Source of the DNA: a virus
Virus record (IMG/VR): IMGVR_UViG_3300027908_000013
Coordinates: 1 to 43,780 of that record
Direction: 5' to 3' (one strand)
Length of the DNA stretch: 43,780 nt
In this document: one piece after another, positions 5,827 to 21,031 of the stretch
Numbering within the stretch: the stretch's first letter is position 1
Layout of the letters: each line of letters begins with the position of its first letter
Program-made: the position numbers and the translations under genes
The notes under the pieces: model-generated
Seen by the model: only the letters and a program-made list of their open reading frames with translations
What the model was told of the DNA's origin: nothing
Database searches by the model: none

Positions 5827-5997
5827 ATGTCACGCTTTTTTATAGCGCTGATTTTTGTGTGCTTGGCGACTTCGCTCAAGGCTGACGGTGGGGGTGCCTA
5901 CGTCGTGGCGACGTGCGGGACGCTGCCTGTCGCGTACGCGGTCGGCTCGACGCGGTCGATCACGGTCAACACCAGCGGCCAGGCGTGCTTGTCATGA
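5827..5997 (+). CDS. Short exported protein, duplicate of the next gene's N-terminus, 56 aa
   Basis: The 56-residue product has a Sec-type signal peptide (MSRFFIALIFVCLATSLKA) followed by only 37 residues containing VVATCGTLPVAYAVGSTRSI and ending QACLS. The mature part is a near copy of residues 25-54 of the next protein (VVAVCGVLPQAYPVGSTQPL, ending NFCID), with both cysteines in register. This looks like a tandem duplication in which one copy lacks the fibre body. ATG 5827 has AGGA eight bases upstream. The stop overlaps the next start (ATGA). The function is unknown. Confidence 0.7.
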   Translation: MSRFFIALIFVCLATSLKADGGGAYVVATCGTLPVAYAVGSTRSITVNTSGQACLS

Positions 5998-7229
5998 GGG
6001 CGATCCTCATCGCGCTGTCTTTATTGTTCTCATCGCTTGGCGTTGCGCACGCGCAAGACGCGCTGGTTGTTGCGGTTTGCGGAGTGCTTCCACAAGCGTA
6101 TCCTGTCGGTTCGACGCAGCCACTTACTGTCGACGTGAATGGTAATTTTTGTATTGATGGGAGCGGGGCGGGCACCGTAACGAGTGTTGGGCTTTCATTG
6201 CCAGCATCAGTTTTCGCTGTGACGGGATCGCCGGTGACCGTGTCCGGCACGCTCAGCGCGACGCTCCAGAACCAGACTGCGAATACGGTGTTCGCCGGGC
6301 CGACGACTGGCATCGCGAACACGCCCTCGTTCCGTGCGCTTGTGGCTGCCGATATCCCATCATTGTCGGCTACGTACGTAGCGATTGCTAGTCTAGGGAC
6401 TAACGTTAATACGGCGTTGGGTCTTACGCTTAATGGTTCCGGCGCAATATCTGCTACAACATCGCCCACGTTTGTTACGCCCACCCTTGGCGCAGCTTCG
6501 GCTACTTCCGTTGTCATTGGTGGTGGTTCAGCAATCACGTCATCGGGAGTAGGCGGATCGCTTGGTACGAATGCTTTCAACTCGACTGCGTACGCGCCGC
6601 TTGCGTCGCCGACCTTCACTGGCACCGTTACAATGCCGGACGCCAGCACGATTACGTCAGGTGGCCATACCGGCTCTGCGCTCTTTACGGTGACGGGCAC
6701 GACTGCGCCCACAATGGCGGCTGGCACCAACGTCTTTGGCGGAATAATATCAGGCCCAACTATGAGCGCCAATGGCGAAGGTGCCGTATATCTGGCGAGC
6801 GCTAACGGTCTAACCTTGATGGGAAAGGGTTCGAGTTCTGATCTTATATTTTTGAACAGCGGCGGGGGTACGGTGTGCTCAGTACCCACAGGATCGGGGA
6901 ATTTAAAATGTACCGCTTTCTTTCCGACAGGGTCTAGTGTGCCCGCTAATGGAATGTACTTACCTGCTACAAACACGGTGGGCATTGCAGCCGGTTCAAC
7001 CTTATCGCAAAGCTGGACGGCTACAGGGAGTGTAGTTGCAGGCGGTCTGGCGGTAGGAGCCCCTACAGGCGGTAATGAAGGAGCAGGCACAATTAATTCT
7101 GCCGCAGCGTACTACGCGAACGGAACGAAGGGCGTGACGTGCTCTGGTGCGCTTACTGTCATTGCTAGCATCACAATCACGAATGGCATTATTACCGCCG
7201 CGACAGGCACGGGTGGTACGTGCTCATGA
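5994..7229 (+). CDS. Exported tail-fibre-like protein, 411 aa
   Basis: A clear signal peptide (MRAILIALSLLFSSLGVAHA, cleavage before QDAL) precedes a Gly/Ser/Thr/Ala-rich body with fibre-like beta-repeat character (for example SPTFVTPTLGAASATSVVIG and SPTFTGTVTMPDASTITSGG). The C-terminal segment, GTKGVTCSG to GGTCS, resembles the knobs of phage tail fibres. The mature chain has six cysteines. The true start is the ATG at 5994 in the ATGA overlap with the preceding small gene; an upstream ATG in the same frame has no signal peptide. It lies between portal and endolysin. I infer a secreted or surface-displayed fibre-like protein; its place in the virion is unproven. Confidence 0.75.
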   Translation: MRAILIALSLLFSSLGVAHAQDALVVAVCGVLPQAYPVGSTQPLTVDVNGNFCIDGSGAGTVTSVGLSLPASVFAVTGSPVTVSGTLSATLQNQTANTVFAGPTTGIANTPSFRALVAADIPSLSATYVAIASLGTNVNTALGLTLNGSGAISATTSPTFVTPTLGAASATSVVIGGGSAITSSGVGGSLGTNAFNSTAYAPLASPTFTGTVTMPDASTITSGGHTGSALFTVTGTTAPTMAAGTNVFGGIISGPTMSANGEGAVYLASANGLTLMGKGSSSDLIFLNSGGGTVCSVPTGSGNLKCTAFFPTGSSVPANGMYLPATNTVGIAAGSTLSQSWTATGSVVAGGLAVGAPTGGNEGAGTINSAAAYYANGTKGVTCSGALTVIASITITNGIITAATGTGGTCS

Positions 7230-7294
7230 TCCCCTACGCTGTCATATTTTTCTTCGACGACGCACCCACGCTCGTTATTTACGCGAGGCGGTAA
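7226..7294 (+). CDS. 22-codon mini-ORF coupling fibre-like gene to endolysin
   Basis: The ATG at 7226 sits in the ATGA overlap with the fibre-like gene, and the stop TAA (7292-7294) overlaps the endolysin ATG as TAATG. The peptide MIPYAVIFFFDDAPTLVIYA, ending RR, is hydrophobic with a central Asp pair. It may serve to carry ribosomes across the 64-base gap to the endolysin start, or be a very small membrane-active peptide. Both junctions being perfect couplings is the main evidence; there is no family match I know of. Confidence 0.4.
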   Translation: MIPYAVIFFFDDAPTLVIYARR

Positions 7295-7821
7295 TGGACA
7301 CCAGCTGGCCAAAGGCCCTCGCCTGGGTGCGCGTATCGGAAGGTGGTAACGTCGATGATCCCGACGACGCGGGTGGGCGCACGTCGCGCGGGATCACGCA
7401 GCGTTCTTTCAATTCGTATTGTCAGGTAGCGGGCTTGCCTCAAGGTGACGTATGGAAAGCACCTGATCCAGTCATCGACGACATATATCACCGTGGGTTT
7501 TGGATGCCGTACTGTCCGGTGTTGCCCGCGGGTGCTGATTACGTTTTCTTCGACGAGAGCGTGAACAGCGGGTTTCACGAAGCGGTGCTTGTTCTGCAGC
7601 GGGCGCTTGGCGTCACGGCTGACGGACATATTGGCGTGGTGACGAGCGCTGCGCTGTCAAAGGCAGATCCGATGAAGCTCGTTGAGGCGATGACGGTCGA
7701 GCGGATCAAGGTGTACAAAGAGATCGAGGCGGCGCATCCGGTCGACGCGAAGTTCGATCACGGCTGGATGGAGCGGGTTGCGTTCGTACAGCTGAATGCG
7801 CGTACGCTAGTCGCGGGGTAG
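7294..7821 (+). CDS. GH108-family endolysin (muramidase), 175 aa
   Basis: The product is a phage lysozyme of glycoside hydrolase family 108, which cleaves the glycan strands of peptidoglycan at lysis. The signature is the catalytic Glu16 in SEGGNVDDPDDAGGRTSRGI (15-34). The C-terminal half holds the predicted peptidoglycan-binding domain typical of this family (VFFDESVNSGFHEAVLVLQR and GVTADGHIGV). The length fits the family (about 170-180). No signal peptide is present, so export needs a holin or pinholin. Two small membrane-protein genes follow immediately. ATG 7294 is coupled to the preceding mini-ORF. Confidence 0.92.
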   Translation: MDTSWPKALAWVRVSEGGNVDDPDDAGGRTSRGITQRSFNSYCQVAGLPQGDVWKAPDPVIDDIYHRGFWMPYCPVLPAGADYVFFDESVNSGFHEAVLVLQRALGVTADGHIGVVTSAALSKADPMKLVEAMTVERIKVYKEIEAAHPVDAKFDHGWMERVAFVQLNARTLVAG

Positions 7822-7827
7822 CTTTCG

Positions 7828-8061
7828 ATGCTCGATACGATCAAGACTGTCGGGGATTGCGCGCTTGGCTTTGGGGTGCTGCTCGGCGCACTCGCGCAGC
7901 TGTTTACCTGGAACACGCAGCGCCGGAATGCGGAAGTCATCGCAAGCCTCGAAAAAAATACGAACAGCATAAAGGACGCGCTCGTAGAGGTAACGGGGCA
8001 GTCCGAGCACGCTAAGGGAGTTTTGGCCGGTCGGGCAGAAATTTTGGGAGACACACGTTGA
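7828..8061 (+). CDS. Small single-pass membrane protein of the lysis cassette, 77 aa
   Basis: A hydrophobic segment near residues 10-27 (ALGFGVLLGALAQLFTW) is followed by a polar, helical tail (NAEVIASLEKNTNSIKDALV) ending in GEILGDTR-like sequence. The position directly after the endolysin and before a second small membrane protein suggests a lysis role such as holin, antiholin or spanin component. No spanin lipobox is present and only one membrane segment is visible, so the exact role is open. Its stop is shared with the TTG start of the next gene. Confidence 0.65.
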   Translation: MLDTIKTVGDCALGFGVLLGALAQLFTWNTQRRNAEVIASLEKNTNSIKDALVEVTGQSEHAKGVLAGRAEILGDTR

Positions 8062-8351
8062 GCAGCGACGAGCTCGGTCCTTCGTTTCGCAAATTCATCG
8101 ATAGTACGACGGCGATCACGCTTGCGCGGTTTTTTATGCCGCTCGTTGTCGCGGTCTTGGGGTATTTTCTGTCGACGACGCTTTCGGATTTGAAATTCTC
8201 TAACCAGCAGATTTGGGCTCAGCTTGGTAAGATGATCGACGCGCAGGCGGTGACGAACGCTGCGGCGGCGGGGGTGTCGGCTAAGGTAGACGCGGCCGTG
8301 AAGCAGCTCGATCACCTACAAGGGCAAGTGGATAGTTTGCCGCGTCGCTAG
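8058..8351 (+). CDS. Membrane-anchored coiled-coil protein of the lysis cassette, 97 aa
   Basis: The protein has one membrane segment at about residues 22-44 (ARFFMPLVVAVLGYFLSTTL) and an Ala/Val/Lys-rich helical C-terminal half (NAAAAGVSAKVDAAVKQLDH). This topology resembles inner-membrane spanins or tail-associated membrane proteins, but I cannot assign it. The start is TTG 8058 within TTGA, with GGGAG eight bases upstream. It is the last gene before a 112-base gap. Confidence 0.65.
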   Translation: MSSDELGPSFRKFIDSTTAITLARFFMPLVVAVLGYFLSTTLSDLKFSNQQIWAQLGKMIDAQAVTNAAAAGVSAKVDAAVKQLDHLQGQVDSLPRR

Positions 8352-8411
8352 TTGACTTTTAATCCTAACGTGTACAATATCTAGCGTTTCGCATGGTGGG
8401 CGTAACCCACC
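8352..8411 (+). promoter_or_regulatory. Possible promoter and leader hairpin before the scaffold and capsid genes
   Basis: The 112-base gap 8352-8463 opens with TTGACT (8352-8357) and, 15 bases on, TACAAT (8373-8378). The hexamers are good but the spacing is two bases shorter than ideal. Downstream a 6-bp hairpin GGTGGG/CCCACC (8395-8400 with 8406-8411) lies in what would be the 5' leader, without a U tract. A separate promoter for the head genes is biologically sensible because capsid protein is needed in large amounts. A GGAGG ribosome site precedes the scaffold ATG. Confidence 0.4.
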
Positions 8412-8463
8412 CCTCGCGTTCATCTGACGACTGGCCCCCGTAAGGCGCCGCTGGAGGACTGTC

Positions 8464-9297
8464 ATGTTTAAGCGACACTTGCTGTCGAGTGCTGCGTACT
8501 TTGCCCCGCGCGATGAGGGTGCCGGGGGTACGCCGGAAGACGAACGAATTCCGGGCGATCTGTCGGATGATGACGAGACGCCGACCGATCCGATCGACGA
8601 CCCGGCAGAGGACGACACAGGCGGCGGTGCGAACGACGACCAGGACGCGGAAGACGATGACACGCACGGCGAAGACGACGATGCAGATGGTGGCGCCGAG
8701 GCAGGCGCTCGTCAACCGTCGCGTGGCGAGCGCCAATACGCCGAGCTTCGCCGGCAGCGCCGCGAAGACGCCGCTGCAATCGCAACCCTTACTCGTCAGC
8801 TTGACGAAATGCGGCGTAACCCGCCGCAGCCTCAGCAGCCGACCGAGACTGCCGCGCAACGGGCCGAGCGCCTTGCGCTCATGTCCCCCGAAGAACGGAT
8901 CGCCGAGACGGTCAATTCCGCGCTCGCTGTTCATGAGCACAAGACTGCTCAGCTTACCAACCATCTGCTCGATCAGTCTGACCGGTCGTCATTTCAAGCT
9001 CGGTGCGCGGCCAATCCTGTTTTTCAGAAGATCGCGAACGAAGTCGAGCAGCGTCTTGCTGGTTTCCGGCAGCGCGGCGAGGCGAGTGTTCCGCGCGAAG
9101 TCATCGCAACGTACATCATTGGTGAGCGCGCGATTGCGCAGATGGGCAAGGCGAAGCCCGGAGCGCAGCAACGCCGGCAGCAACAGACTTCCCGGCCGAC
9201 GAACGGACGAGGCGACATTGCCCCGAACCGTTCGCAGCGTCGCAGCGGGAACACGGTAGAGGACTTCGAGCGCCGTCATGGCGACGACATAATTTAG
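8464..9297 (+). CDS. Probable scaffolding protein, 277 aa
   Basis: I infer a capsid scaffold, a protein that guides procapsid assembly and then leaves. Reasons are the position just before the major capsid gene, the strongly acidic, disordered N-terminal third (runs of Asp and Glu at about 25-80), the central helical part with heptad character (ERQYAELRRQRREDAAAIAT), and a basic C-terminal tail (QQRRQQQTSRPTNG, ending RRHGDDII) suitable for binding the capsid lining. Scaffolds diverge quickly and no sequence motif proves the call. It ends directly at a strong hairpin. Confidence 0.75.
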   Translation: MFKRHLLSSAAYFAPRDEGAGGTPEDERIPGDLSDDDETPTDPIDDPAEDDTGGGANDDQDAEDDDTHGEDDDADGGAEAGARQPSRGERQYAELRRQRREDAAAIATLTRQLDEMRRNPPQPQQPTETAAQRAERLALMSPEERIAETVNSALAVHEHKTAQLTNHLLDQSDRSSFQARCAANPVFQKIANEVEQRLAGFRQRGEASVPREVIATYIIGERAIAQMGKAKPGAQQRRQQQTSRPTNGRGDIAPNRSQRRSGNTVEDFERRHGDDII

Positions 9298-9317
9298 GGC
9301 GGTGAGCAGTCACCGCC
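9298..9317 (+). other. Perfect 8-bp hairpin between scaffold and capsid genes
   Basis: Immediately after the scaffold stop, GGCGGTGA (9298-9305) pairs perfectly with TCACCGCC (9310-9317) around a GCAG loop. No U tract follows, so a normal terminator is unlikely. Its place between a moderately needed scaffold and a highly expressed capsid gene suggests an RNA-processing or stability element. The capsid ribosome site AGGAGA lies just downstream and is outside the stem. Confidence 0.6.
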
Positions 9318-9338
9318 TCAAACTAGGAGAGCGGTGAG

Positions 9339-10679
9339 ATGCCCACGAACAGTGCAGCCCAATTTTCCGGCGACATAAGCCCGTATATTGCGGCGAAGAC
9401 GCTTCCCCTCGCGCGGCGCCAGTTGGTCGTTTATCAGTTCGGCGACCCGGCGACGCTCCCCAAAGGCCAGGGCGTAACTTACACCGCGAGCCGCTACAAC
9501 CGCGTGCCGCTGCCTTACGCGCCGTTGTCCGAGGGTGTTCCGCCCATCGGGCAGACGATGACGCTGCAGCAGGTCTCCGCGCAGGCCCAGCAGTGGGGTG
9601 ACAAGATCACCATTACCGATGTTGCGGAGATGACGATCAAGCATCCGCTGTTCAAGAAAGCGATCGAGCTCGTCGCGCTTCAGCTTTCCGAAACCATGGA
9701 GCGCAACACCTTCAACAACCTGATGGCGGGCTCGCAGATCAATTATGTGAACAGTCGCGGTGCGCGCGCATCGCTCGTCACCGGCGACGTGATCAACCCG
9801 CACGAGATCAATCGCGCGACCGCGATGCTCAGCAACCTCGGCGCTCCGCGCTACATGGGCGATGAAGTCACCGACATGAAGCTCGAAGCGGACGCGGGCG
9901 GCGCCAAGGCGTCGAGCAATCCGCGCAAGATGCCGCACTACGTTGCGGTGTGTCATCCGTTCGTCGTCGGCGACTTTTCCGAAAATTCGACGGTCGTCAC
10001 GGCCTGGTCGTATAGCGATCTCAACCGGCTGTACAATTACGAGGCGGGCGAGTGGCGTGGTATCCGCTTCTGTCAGACCAACATGGTGCCGTCGTGGACT
10101 GGTGTTGCGGCCATCAACGGTGCGGCGGTTGGCGGTGGCGCACTCGCGGCCGGCACCTATTACATCCAGCTCACCGGCCAGGACACGCAGAACCAGTACG
10201 AGAGCCAGATTTATCAGGTGTCGGCCGGCGTCGTCGTGCTGGCGAACGGCGCAGTGCAGTTCACCACGCCAAACACCCCCGGCTACACGTACAACGCCTA
10301 CATCGGCACAACGACGTCGCCGTTCAATCTTGGTGTCTCCGTGCAGGGTCCGACGACCGGGCCGCTGCAGGGACAAGCGACGCAGTTGCCGCCGAACACG
10401 GTGTGCATGATCACGGCGCTCGGCGTCGCGCAAGTGCCGCCCGCAGCGCCCGCGACCGGCGTCACCGTCTATCCGACGTTCGTTTTCGGGCGTGGGGCGT
10501 ACTCGCAGGTCGTGCTGCAGAATGCCGAGTTCACGTACCTCAAGAACGCCGACAAGTCGGACCCGCTCAATCAGTTGCGTGTGGTCGGCTGGAAGAATTT
10601 CTACGGAACGCTGATCACCAATTCGCAGTTCATGATGCGGATTGAGAGCACGTCCGCGTTCAACTCGACGTTCGGCTAA
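9339..10679 (+). CDS. Major capsid protein, N4-gp56 family, 446 aa
   Basis: This HK97-fold shell protein belongs to the N4-gp56 family. Recognisable blocks are the N-terminal KTLPLARRQLVVYQFGDPAT, TYTASRYNRVPLPYAPLSEG, QWGDKITITDVAEMTIKHPL, ERNTFNNLMAGSQINYVNSR and the ATAMLSNLGAPRY segment, in family order. After the NMVPSWTG block (about 247-255) there is an extra domain of roughly 100 residues with an Ig/FN3-like feel (GTYYIQLTGQDTQNQYESQI), and the shell fold resumes at TVYPTFVFGRGAYSQVVLQ. I recall similar insertions in relatives, so it is a family variation. AGGAGA lies nine bases before the ATG. Confidence 0.93.
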   Translation: MPTNSAAQFSGDISPYIAAKTLPLARRQLVVYQFGDPATLPKGQGVTYTASRYNRVPLPYAPLSEGVPPIGQTMTLQQVSAQAQQWGDKITITDVAEMTIKHPLFKKAIELVALQLSETMERNTFNNLMAGSQINYVNSRGARASLVTGDVINPHEINRATAMLSNLGAPRYMGDEVTDMKLEADAGGAKASSNPRKMPHYVAVCHPFVVGDFSENSTVVTAWSYSDLNRLYNYEAGEWRGIRFCQTNMVPSWTGVAAINGAAVGGGALAAGTYYIQLTGQDTQNQYESQIYQVSAGVVVLANGAVQFTTPNTPGYTYNAYIGTTTSPFNLGVSVQGPTTGPLQGQATQLPPNTVCMITALGVAQVPPAAPATGVTVYPTFVFGRGAYSQVVLQNAEFTYLKNADKSDPLNQLRVVGWKNFYGTLITNSQFMMRIESTSAFNSTFG

Positions 10680-10686
10680 CAGCCTT

Positions 10687-10725
10687 CAAGGGTGCTGCGG
10701 GCGGGCTTCGGCCCGCTCGTCCTTG
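10687..10725 (+). terminator. Large UUCG-capped stem-loop after the capsid gene
   Basis: A GCGGGC/GCCCGC stem (10701-10706 with 10711-10716) capped by a stable TTCG tetraloop is extended by G-U and G-C pairs and by an outer CAAGG/CCTTG arm (10687-10691 with 10721-10725). There is no U tract, so termination may be partial; it may also act as a 3' stability structure for the abundant capsid message. The next gene's ribosome site (AGGAGG) follows a few bases later. Confidence 0.55.
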
Positions 10726-10746
10726 CAGGTTAAACAGGAGGGTCTT

Positions 10747-11016
10747 ATGGCCTATCGGATCACGTATCAGGTCAACGTCATGTGGGTTGGCCCCGGCATC
10801 GGGCCGATGAGTGGCAACGTCGGGCCACAGGTCGGACTAGCGCCGGCAGGCGGCGCGCAGACCCTGGCGTTGTTCAACAAGACAGGCGGTCAGAACAGCC
10901 TGACCTTTCTGTCCGCCGACATCACGACGCTGACGAACGCGATGGCGGCTGACATCGCGGCGCAGATGACGACGAACATCACGCGCATTCAGAACTTCTC
11001 GACCGGCACGGACTAA
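10747..11016 (+). CDS. Small virion-region protein, 89 aa
   Basis: This 89-residue protein opens MAYRITYQVNVMWVGPGIGP and contains GGAQTLALFNKTGGQNSLTF. It looks like a small beta-rich protein with an Ala/Thr helical end (TTLTNAMAADIAAQMTTNIT). The location right after the capsid gene fits a decoration or minor head protein, but I do not recognise the family. ATG 10747 has an AGGAGG site. An in-frame upstream start lies within the capsid gene and is rejected. Confidence 0.75.
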   Translation: MAYRITYQVNVMWVGPGIGPMSGNVGPQVGLAPAGGAQTLALFNKTGGQNSLTFLSADITTLTNAMAADIAAQMTTNITRIQNFSTGTD

Positions 11017-11019
11017 GCC

Positions 11020-11322
11020 ATGGCCACGTCAACGCTCGGCACGACGGCCAACAATTCGCTGACGGCGCTTCCGATGGCCGGGGCGCTGGCGGCGGCTGAC
11101 ATCGCCACGATCGCGAACCTGATCCTCAACGATCAGATCAACACTTACCCGAACCAGCCGATCTTTGTCGGCGCCTTTGCACAGAGCGGCTTGCTCTATG
11201 TGCCGAACCGTGGCATCTTGAAGGTGCTGGCGGGCGATTACGTCGGCGTCGATGCAAGTGGCTGGCCGATCCTCGTGTCGAAGAACGCCATTGCCAACGC
11301 CGCATGGACACACGTTCCCTGA
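11020..11322 (+). CDS. Small virion-region protein, 100 aa
   Basis: The 100-residue product (MATSTLGTTANNSLTALPMA ... NAAWTHVP) has a helical N-terminal half and a beta-rich second half (GLLYVPNRGILKVLAGDYVG). Its composition and position among head genes suggest a capsid accessory or decoration protein. I know no named family. It starts four bases after the preceding stop and ends 13 bases before the next start, which carries GGAGG. Confidence 0.7.
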   Translation: MATSTLGTTANNSLTALPMAGALAAADIATIANLILNDQINTYPNQPIFVGAFAQSGLLYVPNRGILKVLAGDYVGVDASGWPILVSKNAIANAAWTHVP

Positions 11323-11335
11323 TCGGAGGTAGTTC

Positions 11336-11794
11336 GTGGCGAAGAAACCGGAAGTGCGCCGCAAGATCCCGGTGCGCAAGGATTTGCTGACGGTTGAAGA
11401 TCGCGAGGCGCTCAAGGCCGAAGCCCGCAAGTCAGTCCTTGCGGAGATGGAGCAGGACGCGCGGGATGCCTTTTTTCAGGAAGCCCTGCGCGAAGCTCGA
11501 CAAGCGCACGTTCCCGATGAGCAGATGTTGCACGTCACGGTCGACTTGGCGCCGTTCCTGCCGTACGTCATGCTCGACGAGGTGCAGTATTTTCATGGCT
11601 ACTCTTACGATGTGCCCCGCAGCCGCGCCGTCGTGCTTTACGAGCAGATGCAGCGGTCCTGGCAGCACGAGGACGAGACCCACGGCCGCAGCCGCTTTAG
11701 CCCCGGCCGGCGCCCGCGCAGCATCGTGCTCGGCCCGCGTGACGCCGGTACGGTCACCCGTGGCGTCAATGGACCCATCGTAGCGGAGTTGTAG
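11336..11794 (+). CDS. Virion-region protein with a YFHGY-type module, 152 aa
   Basis: The N-terminal 60 residues are a charged helix (LKAEARKSVLAEMEQDARDA). Residues 75-112 form a module with FLPYVMLDEVQYFHGYSYDV and AVVLYEQMQRSWQHE, followed by an Arg-rich tail. The same module recurs in an early-arm protein at 36386-36601, a notable cross-link between virion and early genes. The function is unknown; the position suggests a minor head or neck protein. The start is GTG 11336 with GGAGG upstream. Confidence 0.75.
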   Translation: MAKKPEVRRKIPVRKDLLTVEDREALKAEARKSVLAEMEQDARDAFFQEALREARQAHVPDEQMLHVTVDLAPFLPYVMLDEVQYFHGYSYDVPRSRAVVLYEQMQRSWQHEDETHGRSRFSPGRRPRSIVLGPRDAGTVTRGVNGPIVAEL

Positions 11795-11796
11795 TC

Positions 11797-12246
11797 GTGG
11801 AAGTCCCCCAGGTGAAAAGCCCTCCGGGTGCGGAGGAATTGGCTTGCGCCATTACGGTGCAGGTGACGATCGACAACGGCCGCATGATCGTGATGCAGAC
11901 CTATATCGGCCGCGACGATCCGGTGGGCGCGTATCACGACATGCTCGATAAGCTCGGCGAGGCTGTCGATCGACAGCAGGCGAAGTATCAGCTTGACGGG
12001 CTTAAAGCCAATCTCGAACTCCATGTGACGACGCTGAAAAACATGGAGGAAGATTTTAACGGCATTGAGGCTCGTGCGGAGAAGGCGTGGGCAGCGTCGC
12101 AGCGCAAGGGTCCGGTAAAGATGTCGCCGAACGAAATTGCGCAGAAGGGCACTGCCAAAACCAATATCGAGCGATATCGGCAGAAGATCGTCGAGCTCAA
12201 GCTCGACATCGCAGCCTGCGAGGCGAAGATACATCCGGTGGATTGA
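11797..12246 (+). CDS. Coiled-coil hypothetical protein, 149 aa
   Basis: The first 40 residues include a beta-like stretch (ACAITVQVTIDNGRMIVMQT); the rest is strongly helical with heptad spacing (LDGLKANLELHVTTLKNMEE and ERYRQKIVELKLDIAACEAK). I do not recognise a family. It lies between head genes and the adaptor, so an assembly or minor structural role is plausible. The start is GTG 11797 after a two-base gap; the stop overlaps the next ATG as TGATG. Confidence 0.7.
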   Translation: MEVPQVKSPPGAEELACAITVQVTIDNGRMIVMQTYIGRDDPVGAYHDMLDKLGEAVDRQQAKYQLDGLKANLELHVTTLKNMEEDFNGIEARAEKAWAASQRKGPVKMSPNEIAQKGTAKTNIERYRQKIVELKLDIAACEAKIHPVD

Positions 12247-12980
12247 TGGGGCTTCAGGCACAGCAGATTGTCACTCTCGCAACGCAGGAAGCTAAGTGTC
12301 CCGGTATGGTTTTGCAGGCCGGGCAGTTGTTGAACGCTACGCTACAGGATCTTTGTCAGAACTACGATCTCGACGCAGCGCTTGGCACCTTCGTCTTCTC
12401 GTTCAATTCGGCGGCGGGTAACGGATCGGGTCCGTACCTTTTACCGGCCGACTATCTGCGTACGCAGGTCAAGGACGGCAAGGATGAGTTTTTCTACACG
12501 ATCCAAGGTGTGCCGTACCCCCTGATCCAGGTCACTAAGGCCGAGTATGATTGGCTGGTGCAGACACCGGGTTTTAATTCCTACCCGTACAACTACGCGA
12601 CCGACCTCTCGCAGTCACCCGCGCAACTGTTTGTGTGGCCCCCGGCAAGTGGAGGCTATCCGTGCACGCTGCGCTATTACAAACTCATGCCCGACATTGC
12701 CAGCCCGCAGACAAGCACGACGGTGCCGTGGTTTCTCAATACGCAGATTTTGATACGTAGCCTCGCCGGCCGCTTGATGGGGATCACCGGCGACAGCCGA
12801 CAGGCCGAGTACCTTGGCGACGACCCGATGCGGTATCCGCTCGGTGCGGGGACGCTGCTAAACGCGTATCTGAAGAACGTCGAGGATCGAGAGGGTGCGG
12901 TACACACGGTAGGTAAAGATCGCAGGCGGTGGGGGCGGCCGTTTGATCAGTTGAAGAACACCAAGAACATCGGGTGGTGA
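12246..12980 (+). CDS. Head-tail adaptor protein (SU10/P22 gp4-like), 244 aa
   Basis: This resembles the adaptor that binds under the portal in short-tailed phages (SU10 adaptor and P22 gp4-like proteins). Seen features are the helical N-terminus, the FVFSFNSAAGNGSGPYLLPA and YPLIQVTKAEYDWLVQTPG segments, a typical FVWPPASGGYPCTLRYYKL stretch, and a C-terminal helix region with the basic tail KDRRRWGRPFDQLKN. Its order (after small head proteins, before fibres and nozzle) fits. ATG 12246 overlaps the previous stop and excludes the longer upstream frame. Confidence 0.72.
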   Translation: MGLQAQQIVTLATQEAKCPGMVLQAGQLLNATLQDLCQNYDLDAALGTFVFSFNSAAGNGSGPYLLPADYLRTQVKDGKDEFFYTIQGVPYPLIQVTKAEYDWLVQTPGFNSYPYNYATDLSQSPAQLFVWPPASGGYPCTLRYYKLMPDIASPQTSTTVPWFLNTQILIRSLAGRLMGITGDSRQAEYLGDDPMRYPLGAGTLLNAYLKNVEDREGAVHTVGKDRRRWGRPFDQLKNTKNIGW

Positions 12981-12981
12981 A

Positions 12982-14361
12982 ATGAAACGCATCGCCCTTT
13001 TGGTCGCGGTTCTCGTTGCCCTGGCGACGCCGGTGCACGCGCAAAATACGAAAGCGGCGCTTCTTTCCCAGATCACGGCGACGTTGACGAGCACGCCGGG
13101 CTCGATCACGCCTGCGACGATGACTACGCTGCTTACGAACATGGTCAACTCGTGGCTCGACGCTAATGGTGGCTCGTCGCTTGCCTGTCCAACAAATCAG
13201 TTTGTGACCGGCTTTGCGACGCTAAGCTCGCTTTCGTGCGCGCAGCCGACGTTCAGCAACATATCAGGCACGGTGGCCGCAGCGCAGCTGCCAAACCCAA
13301 GTGCAAGTACCCTGGGTGGAATTCAGTCGTACGCTGCGGTATCTCACCAGTGGATCAACGCGATATCGACGAGTGGTGTGCCGTCGTCGACGCAGCCTGC
13401 GGCCTCGGATTTAAGCAACGGCGTTACCGGTTCGGGTAGCGTGGTGCTTGCTACGTCGCCTTCAATTTCCGGGCTGACGGTGACAAGCGCGTTCACGGCT
13501 ACGGGTCTGGTGACGAATGCCGATCTCGCCGGTTCAATCGCGGCAAGTAAGCTTGTGGGGACGGACATCGCCACGGTCGGTACGCTTACGGCAGGGACGG
13601 CCAGCACCGGTTTCGTTGTTGCGGGCGTCACTATGACGTTAGGGTCGGACGCTACAGGCGATACGTACTATCGCAACTCAAGTGGTGTACTTACACGTTT
13701 GGGGATCGGGTTATCTGCTCAAGTGCTCACGGTTAGCGGAGGTCTGCCGGCGTGGGCGGCCGCGTCCGTTACGACAATCACGGAAGGTACAACCAACATC
13801 GGCAGTGGAAATGCGCCGGAGTTGCTCACTAATATTTCGGGGAAATTGCAGGGGACGGGTTTGTCCGTCGCTGCGACGCCGATCATAAACTGGACAGCTA
13901 CAAGCGGTGCTCCAACTCTGTCAGGGGCGGCAGGAGCGCTTGATATTGTAGAAAGCTCGGCATCTGGGTACGGGCTAGTGATCTTTGGTTTCGGCGCTAC
14001 TAATCCAGCAGTCACTTTTGTAGAGGCGCACGGTACAGTAGCTTCTCCAACCGCTGTAGCGAGCGGGGATTTGTTGATGCAGCAATTGATCGGCGGCTAC
14101 GACGGAACTGCTAACGTAGTCGGTACGGGCGAAATACGTTGCTCGGCCACTCAAAACTGGACACACGGTAGCGCGTTGGGTACGCAGTGTGCAATTTACA
14201 CAACGCCTAATAGTTCGATCACGGAAACGCTAGCGGCAACTTTTGGGCAGGATCAGACGCTTAACGTCGTTGGTGGGTATAAATCCGGCGGTACGGCTGG
14301 CGTCTCCAAGACCTGTGCGGTGTTACCGACCGTCGTTGGTGGTCTCGTTACCGCATGTTGA
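12982..14361 (+). CDS. Exported tail-fibre-like protein, 459 aa
   Basis: The protein begins with a textbook signal peptide (MKRIALLVAVLVALATPVHA, cleavage before QNTK). The next segment, SITPATMTTLLTNMVNSW, is a familiar N-terminal motif of phage fibre proteins. The body is low in charge and rich in Gly/Ala/Ser/Thr with beta repeats, and the end GTAGVSKTCAVLPTVVGGLV, finishing TAC, parallels the C-terminus of the exported protein at 5994-7229. The mature chain has six cysteines. It starts one base after the adaptor stop. Secretion is predicted from sequence only. Confidence 0.75.
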   Translation: MKRIALLVAVLVALATPVHAQNTKAALLSQITATLTSTPGSITPATMTTLLTNMVNSWLDANGGSSLACPTNQFVTGFATLSSLSCAQPTFSNISGTVAAAQLPNPSASTLGGIQSYAAVSHQWINAISTSGVPSSTQPAASDLSNGVTGSGSVVLATSPSISGLTVTSAFTATGLVTNADLAGSIAASKLVGTDIATVGTLTAGTASTGFVVAGVTMTLGSDATGDTYYRNSSGVLTRLGIGLSAQVLTVSGGLPAWAAASVTTITEGTTNIGSGNAPELLTNISGKLQGTGLSVAATPIINWTATSGAPTLSGAAGALDIVESSASGYGLVIFGFGATNPAVTFVEAHGTVASPTAVASGDLLMQQLIGGYDGTANVVGTGEIRCSATQNWTHGSALGTQCAIYTTPNSSITETLAATFGQDQTLNVVGGYKSGGTAGVSKTCAVLPTVVGGLVTAC

Positions 14362-14389
14362 CAAGTCTGTTATGTTTGTGCTTCTGTTC

Positions 14390-14413
14390 GACGTTCCTTT
14401 TTGGGAGAACGTC
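14390..14413 (+). promoter_or_regulatory. Hairpin holding the ribosome site of the next gene
   Basis: GACGTTC (14390-14396) pairs perfectly with GAACGTC (14407-14413), enclosing a ten-base loop CTTTTTGGGA. The Shine-Dalgarno GGGAG lies partly in the loop and partly in the 3' arm, and the ATG starts at the base right after the stem. This could throttle translation of the 14414 gene. A similar CTTTTTGGGAGA leader, without the long stem, precedes the 19301 gene. Confidence 0.5.
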
Positions 14414-14887
14414 ATGACGCGGGTTTTGTTGATCGGGTTGTTTTGTATCGCGGCTATCAGCCAGGCGCTGGCGGCCGATCCGCCGCAGCCGCTGACGATC
14501 CGGCAGGCGCGGCAGGTTTTGCAAGGTCTGCTGATGCTCGACGGCTATCAGAAGATCATCAAGGATGGCCAGATCGAAAAGACGGCGGTGCAGATTTACG
14601 ATCTCGGCGGCGGCTTGCGCGTGCAGATTGGTCAATCGATTACGGCGTTGCGGCCGGTCGACGAAGCGTTTCAACACGCAAATCTGGCGCTTATCCACAA
14701 ATACTCCGACGACGGGAACGCCGTTGCCAACGCCAAAATGCAGGATTACACTGACGAACTGAACAAGACGCTCGACGGGGTGAGCGGGGTAACAATACCG
14801 CACATCAAGACGAGCGAATTGAAGCTCGACACCAATCCGATACAGGGATCGGTCCTGTCGCTGCTCAACCCCATTCTCGATCCGTAG
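14414..14887 (+). CDS. Exported helical protein, 157 aa
   Basis: A signal peptide (MTRVLLIGLFCIAAISQALA, cleavage before ADPP) precedes a 137-residue helical domain without cysteines (TIRQARQVLQGLLMLDGYQK, then EAFQHANLALIHKYSDDG). The C-terminal half ends in a hydrophobic GSVLSLLNPILDP. I recognise similar small proteins near phage lysis genes only vaguely and assign no function. ATG 14414 with GGGAG upstream is preferred over an in-frame upstream start lacking the signal. The next gene is the holin/barrel fusion nine bases on, so a periplasmic lysis or envelope role is possible. Confidence 0.7.
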   Translation: MTRVLLIGLFCIAAISQALAADPPQPLTIRQARQVLQGLLMLDGYQKIIKDGQIEKTAVQIYDLGGGLRVQIGQSITALRPVDEAFQHANLALIHKYSDDGNAVANAKMQDYTDELNKTLDGVSGVTIPHIKTSELKLDTNPIQGSVLSLLNPILDP

Positions 14888-14896
14888 GAGGTGGCT

Positions 14897-15802
14897 GTGG
14901 ATTTGATTTTTGCGCTGGTGAACACCAGCAAGCTCGCCGGCTGGGTGCGTAGCGGCGTCGGGGCGCTGTTCGTTATGGTGAGCGGCCGATGGCCCATGTT
15001 CAATCAGTGGGTCGATCCGGCGACGCAGATCGAGATCGCCGCTGCTATTGCGACGCTCGCCGTTGGTGTGTGGTCGCACCTCGCCAAGAGCTACGCCGAG
15101 ACACCGCCTGCAATCCCCGGCTATCACCGTGACGGCAGTGTGGGCAACGTCGCGCAGCTTCTGTTCCTCGCCGTTGCGCTGTCATGGCTGCTGGCCGCGA
15201 TTACGCCGGCCAGCGCGCAGGTGGTGACCAAGACGCCGCCCTCCGCGACTTCGGGGTGCACGACGGTCTACTGCACTGGCTGGTATGTCGGCGGTGGCTT
15301 CGCGGGCAACGGCACGAACGCCGACATCATCGGCAGCGGGCTATCCGGTTCCGTCTTCGCGGCCGGCGCGATCCCCTTCGTCAACGGGGGTTGGCAGTAT
15401 TGGAACGGCACCACGTTCCTCGCGATCGAGGCCGGCGTTGGCGACCAGGTCAACGTGGGCGGGGTGACGAACAACGAAGGCGGTGTGCTCGCTTACCAGG
15501 AGGCGCAGGTCGGCGGGACGCTGTCCGGCATCTTCGGCACGCAGGCGCCGGTTGTCGTGCCGAGCAACCTGACGGCCGACCTGATATCCCTCTATGTCGC
15601 GGCCGGCATCGTCGAGCGCGGCTTCGCCACGGGCTTCGAGACAGGGGCTGGTGCGAAGTTCGTCATCGCGCCGAAGATCATTCTCGACATCGGGTATCGT
15701 TACCTGAACTATGGTTCGGCGTCAGTCGGCGTGGCGAACGCGGCGACCGCGAGCTTCAACGCCGAGAACCTCGTACGCGCATCGCTCGAATACAAGTTCT
15801 AA
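14897..15802 (+). CDS. Holin-like domain fused to outer-membrane beta-barrel, 301 aa
   Basis: Residues 1-70 look like a Pam3-gp28-type putative holin: WVRSGVGALFVMVSGRW, then VDPATQIEIAAAIATLAVGV and WSHLAKS. Residues 90-109 form a second hydrophobic segment ending AITPASAQ, like an export signal. The remaining 190 residues have the alternating pattern of a small outer-membrane barrel (GWYVGGGFAGNG, FETGAGAKFVIAPKIILDIG, YRYLNYG) and end in LEYKF, with the terminal Phe used for barrel insertion. I chose GTG 14897 because AGGAGG (14886-14891) overlaps an alternative GTG at 14891. An in-frame GTG at 15140 could start the barrel alone. A fusion of this kind is unusual. Confidence 0.7.
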   Translation: MDLIFALVNTSKLAGWVRSGVGALFVMVSGRWPMFNQWVDPATQIEIAAAIATLAVGVWSHLAKSYAETPPAIPGYHRDGSVGNVAQLLFLAVALSWLLAAITPASAQVVTKTPPSATSGCTTVYCTGWYVGGGFAGNGTNADIIGSGLSGSVFAAGAIPFVNGGWQYWNGTTFLAIEAGVGDQVNVGGVTNNEGGVLAYQEAQVGGTLSGIFGTQAPVVVPSNLTADLISLYVAAGIVERGFATGFETGAGAKFVIAPKIILDIGYRYLNYGSASVGVANAATASFNAENLVRASLEYKF

Positions 15803-15826
15803 CCTCGTTGCAGAGGTTCCTCGTGG

Positions 15827-17488
15827 ATGGCCTTACCGGGCAAACCACTGGTCTGGTCACCACGAGGCGCGTCTGACACCCTCGATAGCTCGACCGCGCC
15901 GAAAGGTGCAATGGGCGCGCTGACGAACCTGATCCCCGACCCAACTACGCGGGATCTGTGGCAGTGTCGCCCGGCAGCGATTTCATTAGCTAATTTTGTT
16001 GGCGCCAATCGGCCCTGGTCGGCGGCGTTTTCTAGCGCGTTCGGACCCGATCTTTTCGTCGGTCCGACGTTCGTCTCTGTTTATCGCGTCTACGGAACGT
16101 GGGTCTACGGGATGGTTTCTACCTCCCGCAATCCAGGGCACGACGAGCCTTTTGCGTACAACATCCTGACCGGGCTCTATACAGCGATTTCTGGTGTCAC
16201 GGCTGTAAACACACCAATCAGCCCGCAGACTGCCGGCCCTTGGAGCCCACCGTCGATGGCGCTGGTGGGTTCGACGATCATATTCTCGCACCCTGGCTTT
16301 ACCGGTGCGGGCAACGCCTATTTTGGCGTGCTCGATATCACCAACCCCGCGGCGCCGGCATGGAGTGCGCAGAATACGACGACCAACACGCTGATCGCCC
16401 CACCGACATGGGTTTTTAATTTCAACGGTCGCTGCTACTTCCTCGTCAATCCACCAAATCAGATGCCAGCCGCGTACTTCTCCGACCCGCTGACGCCGAC
16501 GATTATCACGAACGCGAACCAGATACTGACTTTCGGCGACAACGTTCCTTTGACTGGCGCGGGGGGTGTGCCGCTCGACAACCAGCTTGGCGGCGTCCTC
16601 CAGTCGATGATGGTGTTCAAGGGCGTCACCAATATCTACCAGATCACTGGCGACTACGCGTTGCAGAATTTGTCGCTCAATGCGCTCAATCCTGGCACCG
16701 GAACGTACGCGGCTAACACAATTGTCTCGACGCCCAAGGGCTTGGCCTTTGTCGCGCCGGACGGCGTGCGTGTCATTGATTTCGGCGCGAACGTAGGGGA
16801 CCCGATCGGCGTAGACGGCGATGGCATTGCCGCGCCATTCGTCTCGGCGCTCACACCGTCGCGCATGTGCGCCGCTTACAACAACGGCATCTATCGAGTG
16901 CAGCTGCAGAACGGCGGCGCGTCGGGTAATCCGCAGCAGCAGTGGTGGTATGACTTCGTTCGCACCATCTGGTCCGGGCCTCACACGCAAGCCGCTTCGT
17001 TGATGGCCGCCTATGCTAACTCGTTCATCGTCGCGCTACAAGGCACGGCCGCACTATTTCAAAGTGACACGGCACAGTCCTCAAGCACGACATATGTCGA
17101 GAACGGCGTCGCGATGAATTTCAATTGGGCGACGCCGATGCTTCCTGACACCGATCAGATGGCCGAGGTGGCGATGGTCGAGACGACGCTTCATATGGCG
17201 CTAGTTGCCGGCAACACGATCACGGTCACCTCGCAAGATCAAAATGGCGTGGTGCTTGATACGGTGACGGTTGTTCCCGCAGGCTCCGCTACTTTGTGGG
17301 GCGCGTTTATTTGGGATCAGGCGTTATGGCAAGGCGTTGCGAACGCTCTTTACCCGCGCCCGCTCCAGTGGCATTTTCCTATCGTGTTTCGCCGGATGGC
17401 AATCGTCGCGACGGGCGTCTGTGCGTCGGGGATCAAGATTGGTCGGCTGCACCTTCGCTATGAGGTGCTCGGCTACCTGCAGCAGTGA
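15827..17488 (+). CDS. Tail nozzle-like protein (P22 gp10-like), 553 aa
   Basis: Size, position and sequence style fit the tail tube or nozzle proteins of short-tailed phages (P22 gp10 type), which form the hexameric tube below the adaptor. The protein opens with a loop-rich segment (LVWSPRGASDTLDSSTAPKG) and has repeated beta-propeller-like blades such as GRCYFLVNPPNQMPAAYFSD, VFKGVTNIYQITGDYALQN and GLAFVAPDGVRVIDFGANVG, a pattern typical of this group. It lacks a signal peptide, unlike its neighbours on both sides. The ATG 15827 is 24 bases after the barrel gene. Confidence 0.7.
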   Translation: MALPGKPLVWSPRGASDTLDSSTAPKGAMGALTNLIPDPTTRDLWQCRPAAISLANFVGANRPWSAAFSSAFGPDLFVGPTFVSVYRVYGTWVYGMVSTSRNPGHDEPFAYNILTGLYTAISGVTAVNTPISPQTAGPWSPPSMALVGSTIIFSHPGFTGAGNAYFGVLDITNPAAPAWSAQNTTTNTLIAPPTWVFNFNGRCYFLVNPPNQMPAAYFSDPLTPTIITNANQILTFGDNVPLTGAGGVPLDNQLGGVLQSMMVFKGVTNIYQITGDYALQNLSLNALNPGTGTYAANTIVSTPKGLAFVAPDGVRVIDFGANVGDPIGVDGDGIAAPFVSALTPSRMCAAYNNGIYRVQLQNGGASGNPQQQWWYDFVRTIWSGPHTQAASLMAAYANSFIVALQGTAALFQSDTAQSSSTTYVENGVAMNFNWATPMLPDTDQMAEVAMVETTLHMALVAGNTITVTSQDQNGVVLDTVTVVPAGSATLWGAFIWDQALWQGVANALYPRPLQWHFPIVFRRMAIVATGVCASGIKIGRLHLRYEVLGYLQQ

Positions 17489-17495
17489 GGGCACC

Positions 17496-19208
17496 ATGAA
17501 GCGCTGGATTGTTGGGTTTATATTTTCGCTGTGGGTGTCCGCGGCTTCGGCGGGCGTTACTTGCAGCTTGCCTTTTAATTTGCAGAACGGCACGACCGCC
17601 GACGCAAGTCAGGTGATGGCGAACTATAACGCGCTGGTTGTCTGTCTCGGCAACGCGGCTGCAGCAGGCGCAAATAACGACATCACGGCGCTGCTCGGCC
17701 TGACGACGCCAATCCCGCCTTCCGGGGGCGGATCATCCGTGTTCTTCGGCGGGGCGGTGACGGGCACAGCCAACGCAATCACCTTCGCTTCGCCCGCGCC
17801 TACGGGTTTTACGCTCGTTACCGGGTACACAGTGATCTTCGTCGCGTCGCTGACGAACACAGGTGTGACCACGCTTGAAGTTGCGTCGCAGACCGTCACC
17901 GCGACCACAAACCCCGCGTGTTCGACCGGGACTTGTCCGCCGAGTTTTTATAATATCGGGCCGAACGGGCCTGTGCCGATGATTGGCGGCGAGATACAGG
18001 CTAACCAGATTGTCATTGCCCAATGGGATGGCAGCGAGTTCGAGTGTACGAATTGCGGGGGCGTGCAATATGGCGGTGTCGGGCCACTCACTAATCTCGC
18101 TTCGGCGACGACCACCGATCTGGGCACCGTCTCATCACACAACGTCAGTATCACTGGCTCGACCACGATCACGTCTTTCGGTCAGACGGCGACGACGACG
18201 TACCCCAACTATCAGGTCACGTTCACGTCGCCGCTCACGATCACCTGGAACCAGACGAGTTGCGCGACGGTTGGTGGCTGCATCCAGACGCCAGGGGCGG
18301 CTAATATCGCCGCTGCGGCGGGCGACACCGCCGTTGCGGTTTATCTCGGCAAGAGCAGTGGTGGGCTCGGCAATTGGGCGATCACCAACTACATGCGCGC
18401 GAATGGCACGGCAGTGGTCAACCCGACGCCGCTGTGCGGCGCGGTTGGGTTAGCGATCTACAACGACACGGGTACGCCGAACACCAAGATCGACATCACG
18501 GCCGGTTCGGCGGTGCTCATCAATCCGACCGGCAACGTGCCAATCTATGTGACCGGTGTCTCGGTCGCGATCAACGACACCATCAACGGCGCCAACGGTC
18601 TCGATGCCGTGTCGCTCGGCAACAACACGATGTACAATCACTACTTGATCAGCAACGGCACGACGACGGCCGGGCTTGACAGTGCCTCTGCGACGTCACC
18701 GACGATGCCGAGCGGGTATATTTATTTGTGCCGCCTTGGTGCTAGCAAGACGAACGGATCGGCCAACTTCTACGGTTTTCGCACGACGGGTGCGGTTACC
18801 CAGTACGTGAACGGTGGGGCGAACCTCTCGACCCTCCCCGTCGTAGCGCAGCATTTGAATGGTGGAACCAGCTGTGGAACCACGTCGACAACACCTACAT
18901 GGGCGGCAGAGACGATTGCGGGTACGTCCGGGGTGGCGCCTTTGTGGGCGCCGTCGACCGCGACCGATGTCGAGCTCGTCCTGGTAGGGGCGGACGCCGC
19001 TTCGGCGGCAGCAACGTGCGCGGCGCCGAATAACACGTACGAAAGCCTTGAAACGCCAAACCCGCCGCCGCTTGGGCTCAATACGGCGGTCACCACCGCA
19101 ACAGGGTGGATGAAGTTGGAGACAGCTACGATCTATGTCAGCATCAACGGGGCGGCGAATGGCCTTGTCCAAATCCTGGCCTACAAGGACAACGTAAACG
19201 CCAACTAG
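17496..19208 (+). CDS. Exported Cys-rich tail-fibre-like protein, 570 aa
   Basis: A signal peptide (MKRWIVGFIFSLWVSAASA, cleavage before GVTC) is followed by the fibre N-terminal motif LQNGTTADASQVMANYNALV, a Gly-rich linker (PPSGGGSSVFFGG) and a long beta-rich body. Twelve cysteines occur in the mature chain, several as close pairs (ACSTGTC, ECTNC, SCATVGGC), an unusual number for a cytoplasmic fibre. ATG 17496 with GAGGG upstream is chosen over a longer frame overlapping the nozzle gene. I infer a secreted adhesin or fibre with disulfides; its place in the virion is untested. Confidence 0.75.
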   Translation: MKRWIVGFIFSLWVSAASAGVTCSLPFNLQNGTTADASQVMANYNALVVCLGNAAAAGANNDITALLGLTTPIPPSGGGSSVFFGGAVTGTANAITFASPAPTGFTLVTGYTVIFVASLTNTGVTTLEVASQTVTATTNPACSTGTCPPSFYNIGPNGPVPMIGGEIQANQIVIAQWDGSEFECTNCGGVQYGGVGPLTNLASATTTDLGTVSSHNVSITGSTTITSFGQTATTTYPNYQVTFTSPLTITWNQTSCATVGGCIQTPGAANIAAAAGDTAVAVYLGKSSGGLGNWAITNYMRANGTAVVNPTPLCGAVGLAIYNDTGTPNTKIDITAGSAVLINPTGNVPIYVTGVSVAINDTINGANGLDAVSLGNNTMYNHYLISNGTTTAGLDSASATSPTMPSGYIYLCRLGASKTNGSANFYGFRTTGAVTQYVNGGANLSTLPVVAQHLNGGTSCGTTSTTPTWAAETIAGTSGVAPLWAPSTATDVELVLVGADAASAAATCAAPNNTYESLETPNPPPLGLNTAVTTATGWMKLETATIYVSINGAANGLVQILAYKDNVNAN

Positions 19209-19269
19209 CTGTGGGTAACAGCCTGTTGAAGTGGCACCGGATATAGTGTAGGTTCCGGCAGGCTCGGTC

Positions 19270-19287
19270 GGCGCTTGACGCCTTTTT
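19270..19287 (+). terminator. Weak hairpin plus T5 before the receptor-binding gene
   Basis: In the 92-base gap 19209-19300 a GGCG/CGCC stem (19270-19273 with 19279-19282) is followed directly by TTTTT (19283-19287). The stem is only four pairs, so termination would be partial at best. The T run merges into the GGGAG ribosome site of the 19301 gene. I see no convincing promoter in this gap. Confidence 0.3.
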
Positions 19288-19300
19288 GGGAGATACGACC

Positions 19301-20533
19301 ATGCGGTTTCGCAGATCCATCATTGCGGCGTTGTGTGTGTTCGGTCTCGGAACGGCCGCGGTGCGCGCGCAGAACGTGCCCTACCTGCCGTCCACCAATC
19401 CGGTGTTTGCCGACGCTTCGCATATCCTAGCGACGGTCAATCATCTGATCGAGCTCATCAACCAGTATGTGACGCCGCAGACGATGGCGCCGTACACCAC
19501 GCCACGCAATGTGCTCGACAACGGCGGGATGCAGGTCCAGCAGCGCGGCACCGGTACGCGAACGGCCGGCACAACCACAATCCCGAGTTCGGCGTACAGC
19601 GCCGATCGGTGGGGCGCCAATGTCAACGTCACGTCCGGCGCCGGCACGCTCTCGATCGAGACGACGGACCTGCCTTCATCGCCGATTTTCAACGCCGCAT
19701 CGCTGTTTTATCGCACCTCCGGCGCGCTTGCGCAGCCGCAATGTGTGATGCAGGAAATCCCGACGACGCGCTTGACGCCGCTCGCCGGCACGTACGTCGA
19801 GTTGAGTTTCTACGCCAAGGGGCTGGCGCTGATGCTCGCCGAGCAGACGACGCTTAACGCGTACCTGTTCACCGGCACCGGCGTCGATCAGGGCTTGCAG
19901 TCCTTCACCGCGTCGCCCGCCATCACGCCGGCATGGACCGGGATTGCGTCGACGAACACGACTGCGTTCACGCTGACTTCTTCGTGGCAGCGGCTGAGCA
20001 CCGGCTTCGCAATCCCAACGACCGCGACCGAGGCTGCTGTTGCTCTGTGCTGGACGCCGACGACGGGCGGTACGGCCGGCGCGACCGATGGGTTTGAGTT
20101 TACCGGCGTGCAGCTGGAACAGGGTTACGCACCGTCCGCGTTTGAATTCCGACCTTTTGTTGATGAACTCAGGGTCGCGCAATCTTTTTACGCGCAATGG
20201 GCCGACAGCCCGGCGGCGACCTTTACGTTGCCCGGCACCTGCACCGAAACTTCGTCGGGTGCGACGGCGGCTTGCACGCTCATGTTGCCGGCGACGTTGG
20301 TTAAGACACCGGTTGTCGCGGTAGCGGCTGCCACATCGTTCGGCATGACTAAAGTTGCCGATGGCACCGCCGAAGCCTGTACGACGCTTGCGACCGTGGC
20401 CAGCTCGAGCAATCTTAACTCGATCAAGCTGACGTGCGCTGTATCCGAGACTGCGGCCGTGGGCACTATGCACTTGATGCTTTACGCAGCCACGGGTGCC
20501 GCGAACACCATCACAGTCAGCGCGGACTTTTAA
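19301..20533 (+). CDS. Exported receptor-binding/tail-fibre protein with carbohydrate-binding-like domain, 410 aa
   Basis: After a signal peptide (MRFRRSIIAALCVFGLGTAA, ending VRA before QNVP), the protein has the tail-fibre block NVLDNGGMQVQQRGTGTRTA, SAYSADRWG, SFYAKGL and the closing GFEFTGVQLEQGYAPSAFEF with RPFVDELRVAQSFY. This arrangement is well known from phage tail fibres as a jelly-roll, carbohydrate-binding-like module followed by a small C-terminal domain. The last 110 residues hold four of the six mature cysteines. ATG 19301 has GGGAG eight bases upstream. It is the best candidate for receptor recognition, and the signal peptide is what makes it odd. Confidence 0.8.
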   Translation: MRFRRSIIAALCVFGLGTAAVRAQNVPYLPSTNPVFADASHILATVNHLIELINQYVTPQTMAPYTTPRNVLDNGGMQVQQRGTGTRTAGTTTIPSSAYSADRWGANVNVTSGAGTLSIETTDLPSSPIFNAASLFYRTSGALAQPQCVMQEIPTTRLTPLAGTYVELSFYAKGLALMLAEQTTLNAYLFTGTGVDQGLQSFTASPAITPAWTGIASTNTTAFTLTSSWQRLSTGFAIPTTATEAAVALCWTPTTGGTAGATDGFEFTGVQLEQGYAPSAFEFRPFVDELRVAQSFYAQWADSPAATFTLPGTCTETSSGATAACTLMLPATLVKTPVVAVAAATSFGMTKVADGTAEACTTLATVASSSNLNSIKLTCAVSETAAVGTMHLMLYAATGAANTITVSADF

Positions 20534-20892: not shown

Positions 20893-21031
20893 TATGCACG
20901 CCGGCATGAAGGACCGCTCCGCGCAGCCGGTCGACAGCAGCATGAAGCCGCCGAGTGGGAGTGTCGATGCAAACACGACACGTAAAGAAACCGCGCCTCA
21001 GCAACCCACCATCGGCCCTCGAACCGCTTAG
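20879..21031 (+). CDS. Small basic ORF, 50 aa
   Basis: This 50-codon frame (MAKSDMHAGMKDRSAQPVDS ... TIGPRTA) has GAAGG upstream of its ATG, overlaps the end of the previous gene by 14 bases and the GNAT gene by 65 bases. The composition is polar and probably disordered. Short unstructured genes at this place are common in related phages, but the long overlap and lack of a family leave it uncertain. Confidence 0.45.
   Translation: MAKSDMHAGMKDRSAQPVDSSMKPPSGSVDANTTRKETAPQQPTIGPRTA

Follow-up and report, generated by a model that had tools for sequence, protein, structure and literature searches.

The 43,780-base virus contig IMGVR_UViG_3300027908_000013 of IMG/VR (the whole of this stretch is called the window) comes from an uncultured soil-type podovirus, whose tail fibres and neck protein appear to be made as precursors for the Sec pathway. 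On balance we slightly favour the view that these proteins are genuine virion appendages, which would join the particles at or after lysis. The export signals, their conservation across a clade, their coupling to cysteine pairs and the homology of their bearers to virion proteins were all established by sequence comparison. Among the fates conceivable for such proteins (secreted, displayed on the cell or added to particles), addition to particles is favoured because signal-less homologues occupy virion positions.

Signals were scored with a von Heijne matrix combined with rules for the n-, h- and c-regions (basic start, uncharged hydrophobic core, cleavage site); the matrix values, and hence the scores, are approximate. 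The initial annotation had assigned N-terminal signals to six genes, named here by their first positions (5827, 5994, 12982, 14414, 17496 and 19301; Table 1). All six passed the score as Sec/signal peptidase I (Sec/SPI) signals, and none of the other 48 gene models of the window did. In each of the six the n-region is basic, the hydrophobic core is free of charges and the residues at -3 and -1 are small; by inspection, a lipobox Cys at +1 and a twin-arginine FLK motif are absent from all of them. Whole-protein shuffles passed at rates of 0.7–2.7% in five cases and 6.7% in the sixth, the short 5827, so that six signals in one cluster are far beyond chance. The likely cleavage sites of 5994 and 19301 were set by comparison with relatives. 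The internal signal ascribed to 14897 was also recovered: this protein has no N-terminal signal, and a hydrophobic stretch in it ends in ASA↓Q at residue 107.

The initial annotation had proposed conservation in related phages as a check, and the signals were found to be conserved. Among relatives from IMG/VR, counted as distinct sequences, a signal is present on 102 of 110 members of the exported families, compared to 3 of ∼470 members of the other late families (portal, capsid, adaptor, nozzle, etc.). Relatives of 17496 carry it in 74 of 81 cases by the strict score, those of 12982 in 11 of 11 and those of 19301 in 13 of 14, the remaining one (L021) being signal-like by eye. All relatives of the 5827/5994 domain have a signal or signal-like N-terminus together with a Cys pair. 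Signals are nearly missing from the non-exported families (nozzle 0/74, adaptor 0/69, portal 0/9, capsid 1/34, and single matches in two small head-gene families). The nozzle protein 15827, described earlier as signal-less, indeed has no signal in the window. Crude gene picking gave the same picture: fibre-type genes between nozzle and GNAT are signal-bearing in most of ∼45 contigs, and the nozzle-to-GNAT genes of Burkholderia-type prophages whose nozzle is homologous are essentially devoid of signals. Sample bias was considered, as the first scan was ranked against a signal-bearing sequence, and rejected: in a rerun with a signal-less seed most relatives still had signals. The NCBIfam search returned no family. 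These comparisons support well that the export tags are clade-wide and occur on dozens of relatives.

Tail fibre 1 (17496) was the most informative. Its anchor domain, GVxCSLPFNLxNGTTADAxQVMANYNALxxCL, has two cysteines. A signal precedes 90 of the 102 distinct anchors, and these 90 comprise 72 with the Cys pair, 18 with no Cys and none with a single Cys; the pair occurs in none of the 12 signal-less anchors. Fisher p for the association was 8e-6 in an earlier count and 6e-8 for the 102 anchors; these values overstate independence and 6e-8 is not to be taken literally, because the anchor tree (47 columns) is poorly resolved and the independent events are few. In this tree L104 and L110/L033 fall within signal-bearing branches, which makes at least two joint losses of the signal and both cysteines probable; the Burkholderia group stands apart.

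The predicted cleavage sites point in the same direction. In the anchor family AxA is found at 47 of 62 cleavage positions, and most of the rest have S, T or V at -3. For 54 of 86 anchors the predicted cut lies 15 residues upstream of the ADA core; most signal-less anchors have their native Met 16 residues upstream of this core. The sequences thus support the conclusion that cleavage of 17496-type anchors would restore the N-terminus of the signal-less homologues, and because it would do so the signals look like clean additions before virion domains. An AlphaFold2 (AF2) model of 17496, with a predicted local distance difference test (pLDDT) score of 74.6, matched annotated tail fibres in BFVD (E 1e-14 to 1e-7). 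L171, L181 and L151 have a signal-less fibre 1 in the identical slot, directly 3' of the nozzle gene; the fibre 2 gene that follows keeps its signal in L171 and L181. In Burkholderia-type prophages, too, the fibre gene directly after the nozzle begins with a signal-less anchor.

Anchor proteins were also observed in bacterial sequences. Alphaproteobacterial chromosomes (Bradyrhizobium, Reyranella, Bosea and Hyphomicrobiales; L117, L118, L119, L121, L126) encode exported proteins of 300–370 aa with a Cys-pair anchor, adjoining a very large protein of about 1200 aa (truncated by the locus end) to 2060 aa, which is RHS/YD-repeat-like in L117. Contigs of Myxococcota and Magnetococcales (L129, L130, L133) have signal-bearing anchor proteins that lack the Cys pair; in L129 these stand in tandem. 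We rejected the L117 and L119 loci as prophages of the clade, as the nozzle is absent from the two genomes tested (Bradyrhizobium and Bosea). That the signal-bearing bacterial homologues are mostly alphaproteobacterial gives a hint, and only a hint, of an alphaproteobacterial host.

The neck/fibre protein 12982, whose gene directly follows that of the adaptor, gave a second link to virion proteins. An end-to-end alignment joins QKTKAALITEIGVNWPDNTTGAITPALL, the mature N-terminus of its family, to MAKTKTEMFALIGTNLADNTTGAITPELL, with which the neck protein of Kagunavirus naturally begins; the mature start QKTKAAL is matched there with MAKTKTE. The neck protein domain of Kagunavirus/Guernseyvirinae (TKxxxxxxIxxNxxDNTTGAITPxxLR) shares ∼50% identity with the N-terminal domain of mature 12982-family proteins, and in both cases the shared domain lies beside a connector gene. 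The Kagunavirus protein, on the other hand, has no signal, no Cys in the domain and another C-terminal part, and belongs to a siphovirus. As the match covers only the first ∼40–48 residues and not the whole length, we assigned 12982 a shared domain only. MW202444 was rejected as a relative, having only 45 residues in common with 12982.

In 6 of 76 distinct adaptors (L084, L054/L024, L081, L005/L030, L034/L035 and L059/L022) the adaptor frame continues stop-free via a hydrophobic stretch with AxA into a 12982-type domain. On a Rosetta-stone reading of these fusions, adaptor and 12982 would be partners. Retention of AxA in the fusions suggests that the two parts are still separated by signal peptidase.

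The view of the seven products as a consistent set of exported fibre-like proteins stood only in part. Consistent export is borne out by the signals, relatives, AxA sites, Cys pairs and N-termini; no fibre identity was demonstrated for 5827, 14414 and 14897. Fibre 2 (19301) matched PHROG 4492, tail fiber (E=3.9e-18). The fibre-like 5994 has six Cys in its mature part and a weak match to PHROG 9625 (unknown function), and its start overlaps the stop of 5827. The latter duplicates, as a protein of its own, the 37-residue domain with which 5994 begins, and is 44% identical to the N-terminus of 5994. A similar tandem, a small Cys-pair domain followed by a fibre starting with the same domain, is present in L006, L138 and L140. 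Family and homologue searches with the small 14414 found none. The protein 14897 has two small-holin-like helices, then the hydrophobic stretch with the internal signal, and a beta-strand-rich domain ending in F. Its C-terminal part matched PF13505 with E=0.0055 and 17.3 bits, below the curated cut-off of 28.7. The AF2 model has low confidence (pLDDT 35), with eight strands and the C-terminus ...ASLEYKF, and was too poor for a fold search. These parts are separate in relatives, as genes with an N-terminal signal in L029 and L030 and as the N-terminal segment alone in L002. An exported, barrel-like domain among late genes is reminiscent of the lambda Lom-type outer-membrane proteins; unlike these, 14897 is fused to a holin-like segment and is below the Pfam cut-off.

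Table 1. Features of the window (↓, predicted cleavage site).
Feature	Coordinates	Strand	Predicted signal	Remarks
Free-standing 37-aa Cys-pair domain, exported (predicted)	5827..5997	+	5827-5883	
Fibre-like protein, exported (predicted)	5994..7229	+	about 5994-6053, AHA↓Q	
Head-tail adaptor	12246..12980	+	none	PF24175 SU10_adaptor above cut-off
Neck/fibre protein, exported (predicted)	12982..14361	+	12982-13041, VHA↓Q	
Small protein, exported (predicted)	14414..14887	+	14414-14473, ALA↓A	137 aa mature, no Cys
Holin-like two-helix segment, internal signal, barrel-like domain	14897..15802	+	about 15140-15217, ASA↓Q	
Tail nozzle	15827..17488	+	none	no family model matched; named from gene order beside the adaptor and the initial annotation
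Tail fibre 1, exported (predicted)	17496..19208	+	17496-17552, ASA↓G	anchor domain GVTC...NGTTADASQVMANYNALVVC
Tail fibre 2, exported (predicted)	19301..20533	+	about 19301-19369, VRA↓Q	
GNAT-like acetyltransferase	20955-21524			kept downstream of the fibres
PurD-like GARS protein, phage-encoded	27258-28598			phosphoribosylglycinamide synthetase domains
958-aa protein	29376-32252	-		DUF927 and a weak primase-polymerase match

The window has a direct terminal repeat of 99 bp, and the genome is therefore probably complete. Along the plus strand we observed a Dam-like methylase, TerL, the portal (PHROG 332), the exported pair 5827/5994, a GH108 endolysin and the scaffold, followed by the capsid (weak Phage_capsid_4), small head genes, the SU10-type adaptor, 12982, 14414, 14897 and the nozzle, and then by 17496, 19301, the GNAT protein and three large proteins without a family; the replication genes come next, on the opposite strand. 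This gene order is similar to that of Bcep22-like podoviruses (Lessievirus, BcepIL02, JC1) and of Pseudoalteromonas phage vB_Pun_Y3, the common elements being portal, capsid, neck/adaptor, fibres around a nozzle-type protein, GNAT and virion proteins. The GNAT-like gene was found in BcepIL02 and phage Y3 too. No nozzle homology between this group and the window was detectable in the phage collection. The export signals also set the two apart: the BcepIL02 fibres gp58-61 start without a signal and gp62 gives one marginal score, and the fibre-region genes of phage Y3 have no signal peptides. The JC1 fibre gp56 is present in virions by mass spectrometry (PMC9144972).

Exported fibre-like proteins are documented in the MAT fibres of Bdellovibrio, which are phage-fibre-like adhesins with signal peptides (PMC10769870). 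One of these, 8OND, was the top PDB fold match of 17496, though a weak one (E 8e-4, TM 0.12). The MAT fibres are bacterial and lie outside any phage, and we claim no membership for 17496. As a MAT fibre it was rejected, since in its model a short segment and an alpha-helix stand in place of the ∼130-aa beta-rich domain after the signal.

Coat proteins of filamentous phages such as pIII have Sec signals and disulphides and mature in the periplasm before joining the particle. The present proposal likewise concerns virion proteins with Sec signals. However, filamentous particles are extruded through the envelope, whereas the phage of the window is tailed, with cytoplasmic DNA packaging and cell lysis. 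In the textbook account, tailed-phage morphogenesis is cytoplasmic until lysis. The papers searched, which excluded most subscription journals, described no tailed phage with exported tail fibres.

We propose the following sequence of events, in which the cleavage and oxidation steps, like the joining to particles at or after lysis, are inferred. The fibre and neck precursors would be translated in coupling with the adaptor and nozzle genes and exported by SecYEG. Signal peptidase I would cut at AxA, leaving the N-terminus as in the signal-less homologues, and DsbA-type oxidation would close the disulphides, including the pair in the anchor domain. The fibre and neck proteins would then fold, and probably trimerise, in the periplasm, as heads, adaptor and nozzle assemble in the cytoplasm. 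By opening the inner membrane, lysis would bring the heads together with the fibre and neck proteins. Two further exported late proteins, the small 14414 and 14897 with its outer-membrane-barrel-like domain, would perhaps serve in receptor masking.

The main rival, which we regard as rather unlikely, is that the fibres are exported decoys or surface adhesins, released or displayed to mask receptors against superinfection or to block re-adsorption of progeny to debris, with the putative outer-membrane barrel as part of the same programme. Several data could be read in this way. The predicted domain of 14897 resembles such a barrel, bacterial chromosomes (Bradyrhizobium, Bosea, Reyranella and others) carry exported same-anchor proteins beside a large exported RHS-type protein, and the signal-bearing MAT fibres include the best, if weak, fold match. 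Recombinant receptor-binding protein can also block adsorption (PMC12946066). However, decoys would leave the virion without a recognisable receptor-binding protein; no signal-less fibre candidate was recognised in this probably complete genome, which we count in favour of exported virion appendages. Signal-less versions in the same slot, and mature N-terminal domains that match virion neck/fibre proteins, also argue against decoys.

We consider it improbable that the signals are uncleaved hydrophobic helices, structural in the particle or used for membrane penetration. In six lineages the stretch sits inside a fused adaptor protein, not a place where one expects an N-terminal leader, but the basic n-region, the AxA sites, the Cys pairs only downstream of signals and the match to native starts are signatures of signal peptidase. 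Similarly improbable is inefficient export giving two pools, a cytoplasmic uncleaved one for virions and a periplasmic one with another role such as exclusion. Otherwise similar phages have fibre 1 either with a signal or without one, which would fit this, although the cytoplasmic pool would hold the Cys pair in reduced form and the sequences give no hint of weak signals. Hydrophobic starts that arose by chance, or start codons chosen wrongly in an alanine-rich genome, are hardly credible: some off-frame open reading frames pass the score too, but none of the 48 annotated-type genes does, and conservation in diverged relatives, with neighbours lacking signals, has already refuted this idea.

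The proposal that the exported proteins join the virion also has evidence against it. The occurrence of fibre 1 with and without a signal means that export is non-essential to its function, and the anchor domain, being present in bacterial chromosomes without a nozzle, is by itself no proof of a virion role. The Cys-signal association rests on few independent events, and cleavage of the adaptor fusions would leave an adaptor with a hydrophobic tail. Among the cultured phages of INPHARED there was no relative of the nozzle or fibre 2 and there were only partial matches of fibre 1, the anchor domain giving no or very partial matches in cultured phages; capsid relatives are <30% identical in the best full-length cases. 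The literature search found no earlier case of a tailed phage whose fibres are attached outside the cytoplasm.

We hold as evenly balanced the broader proposition that a large clade of uncultured podoviruses completes its virions outside the cytoplasm, with exported, trimmed and disulphide-bonded neck and fibre proteins snapping on at lysis. As far as could be found, such two-compartment assembly is undescribed in tailed phages. If true, the Sec route would give the fibres disulphides and keep them from immature heads, and free receptor-binding protein would sit at the envelope during infection. It would also change the recognition of receptor-binding proteins in metagenomes, where a signal peptide is often taken as the mark of a bacterial or non-virion gene.

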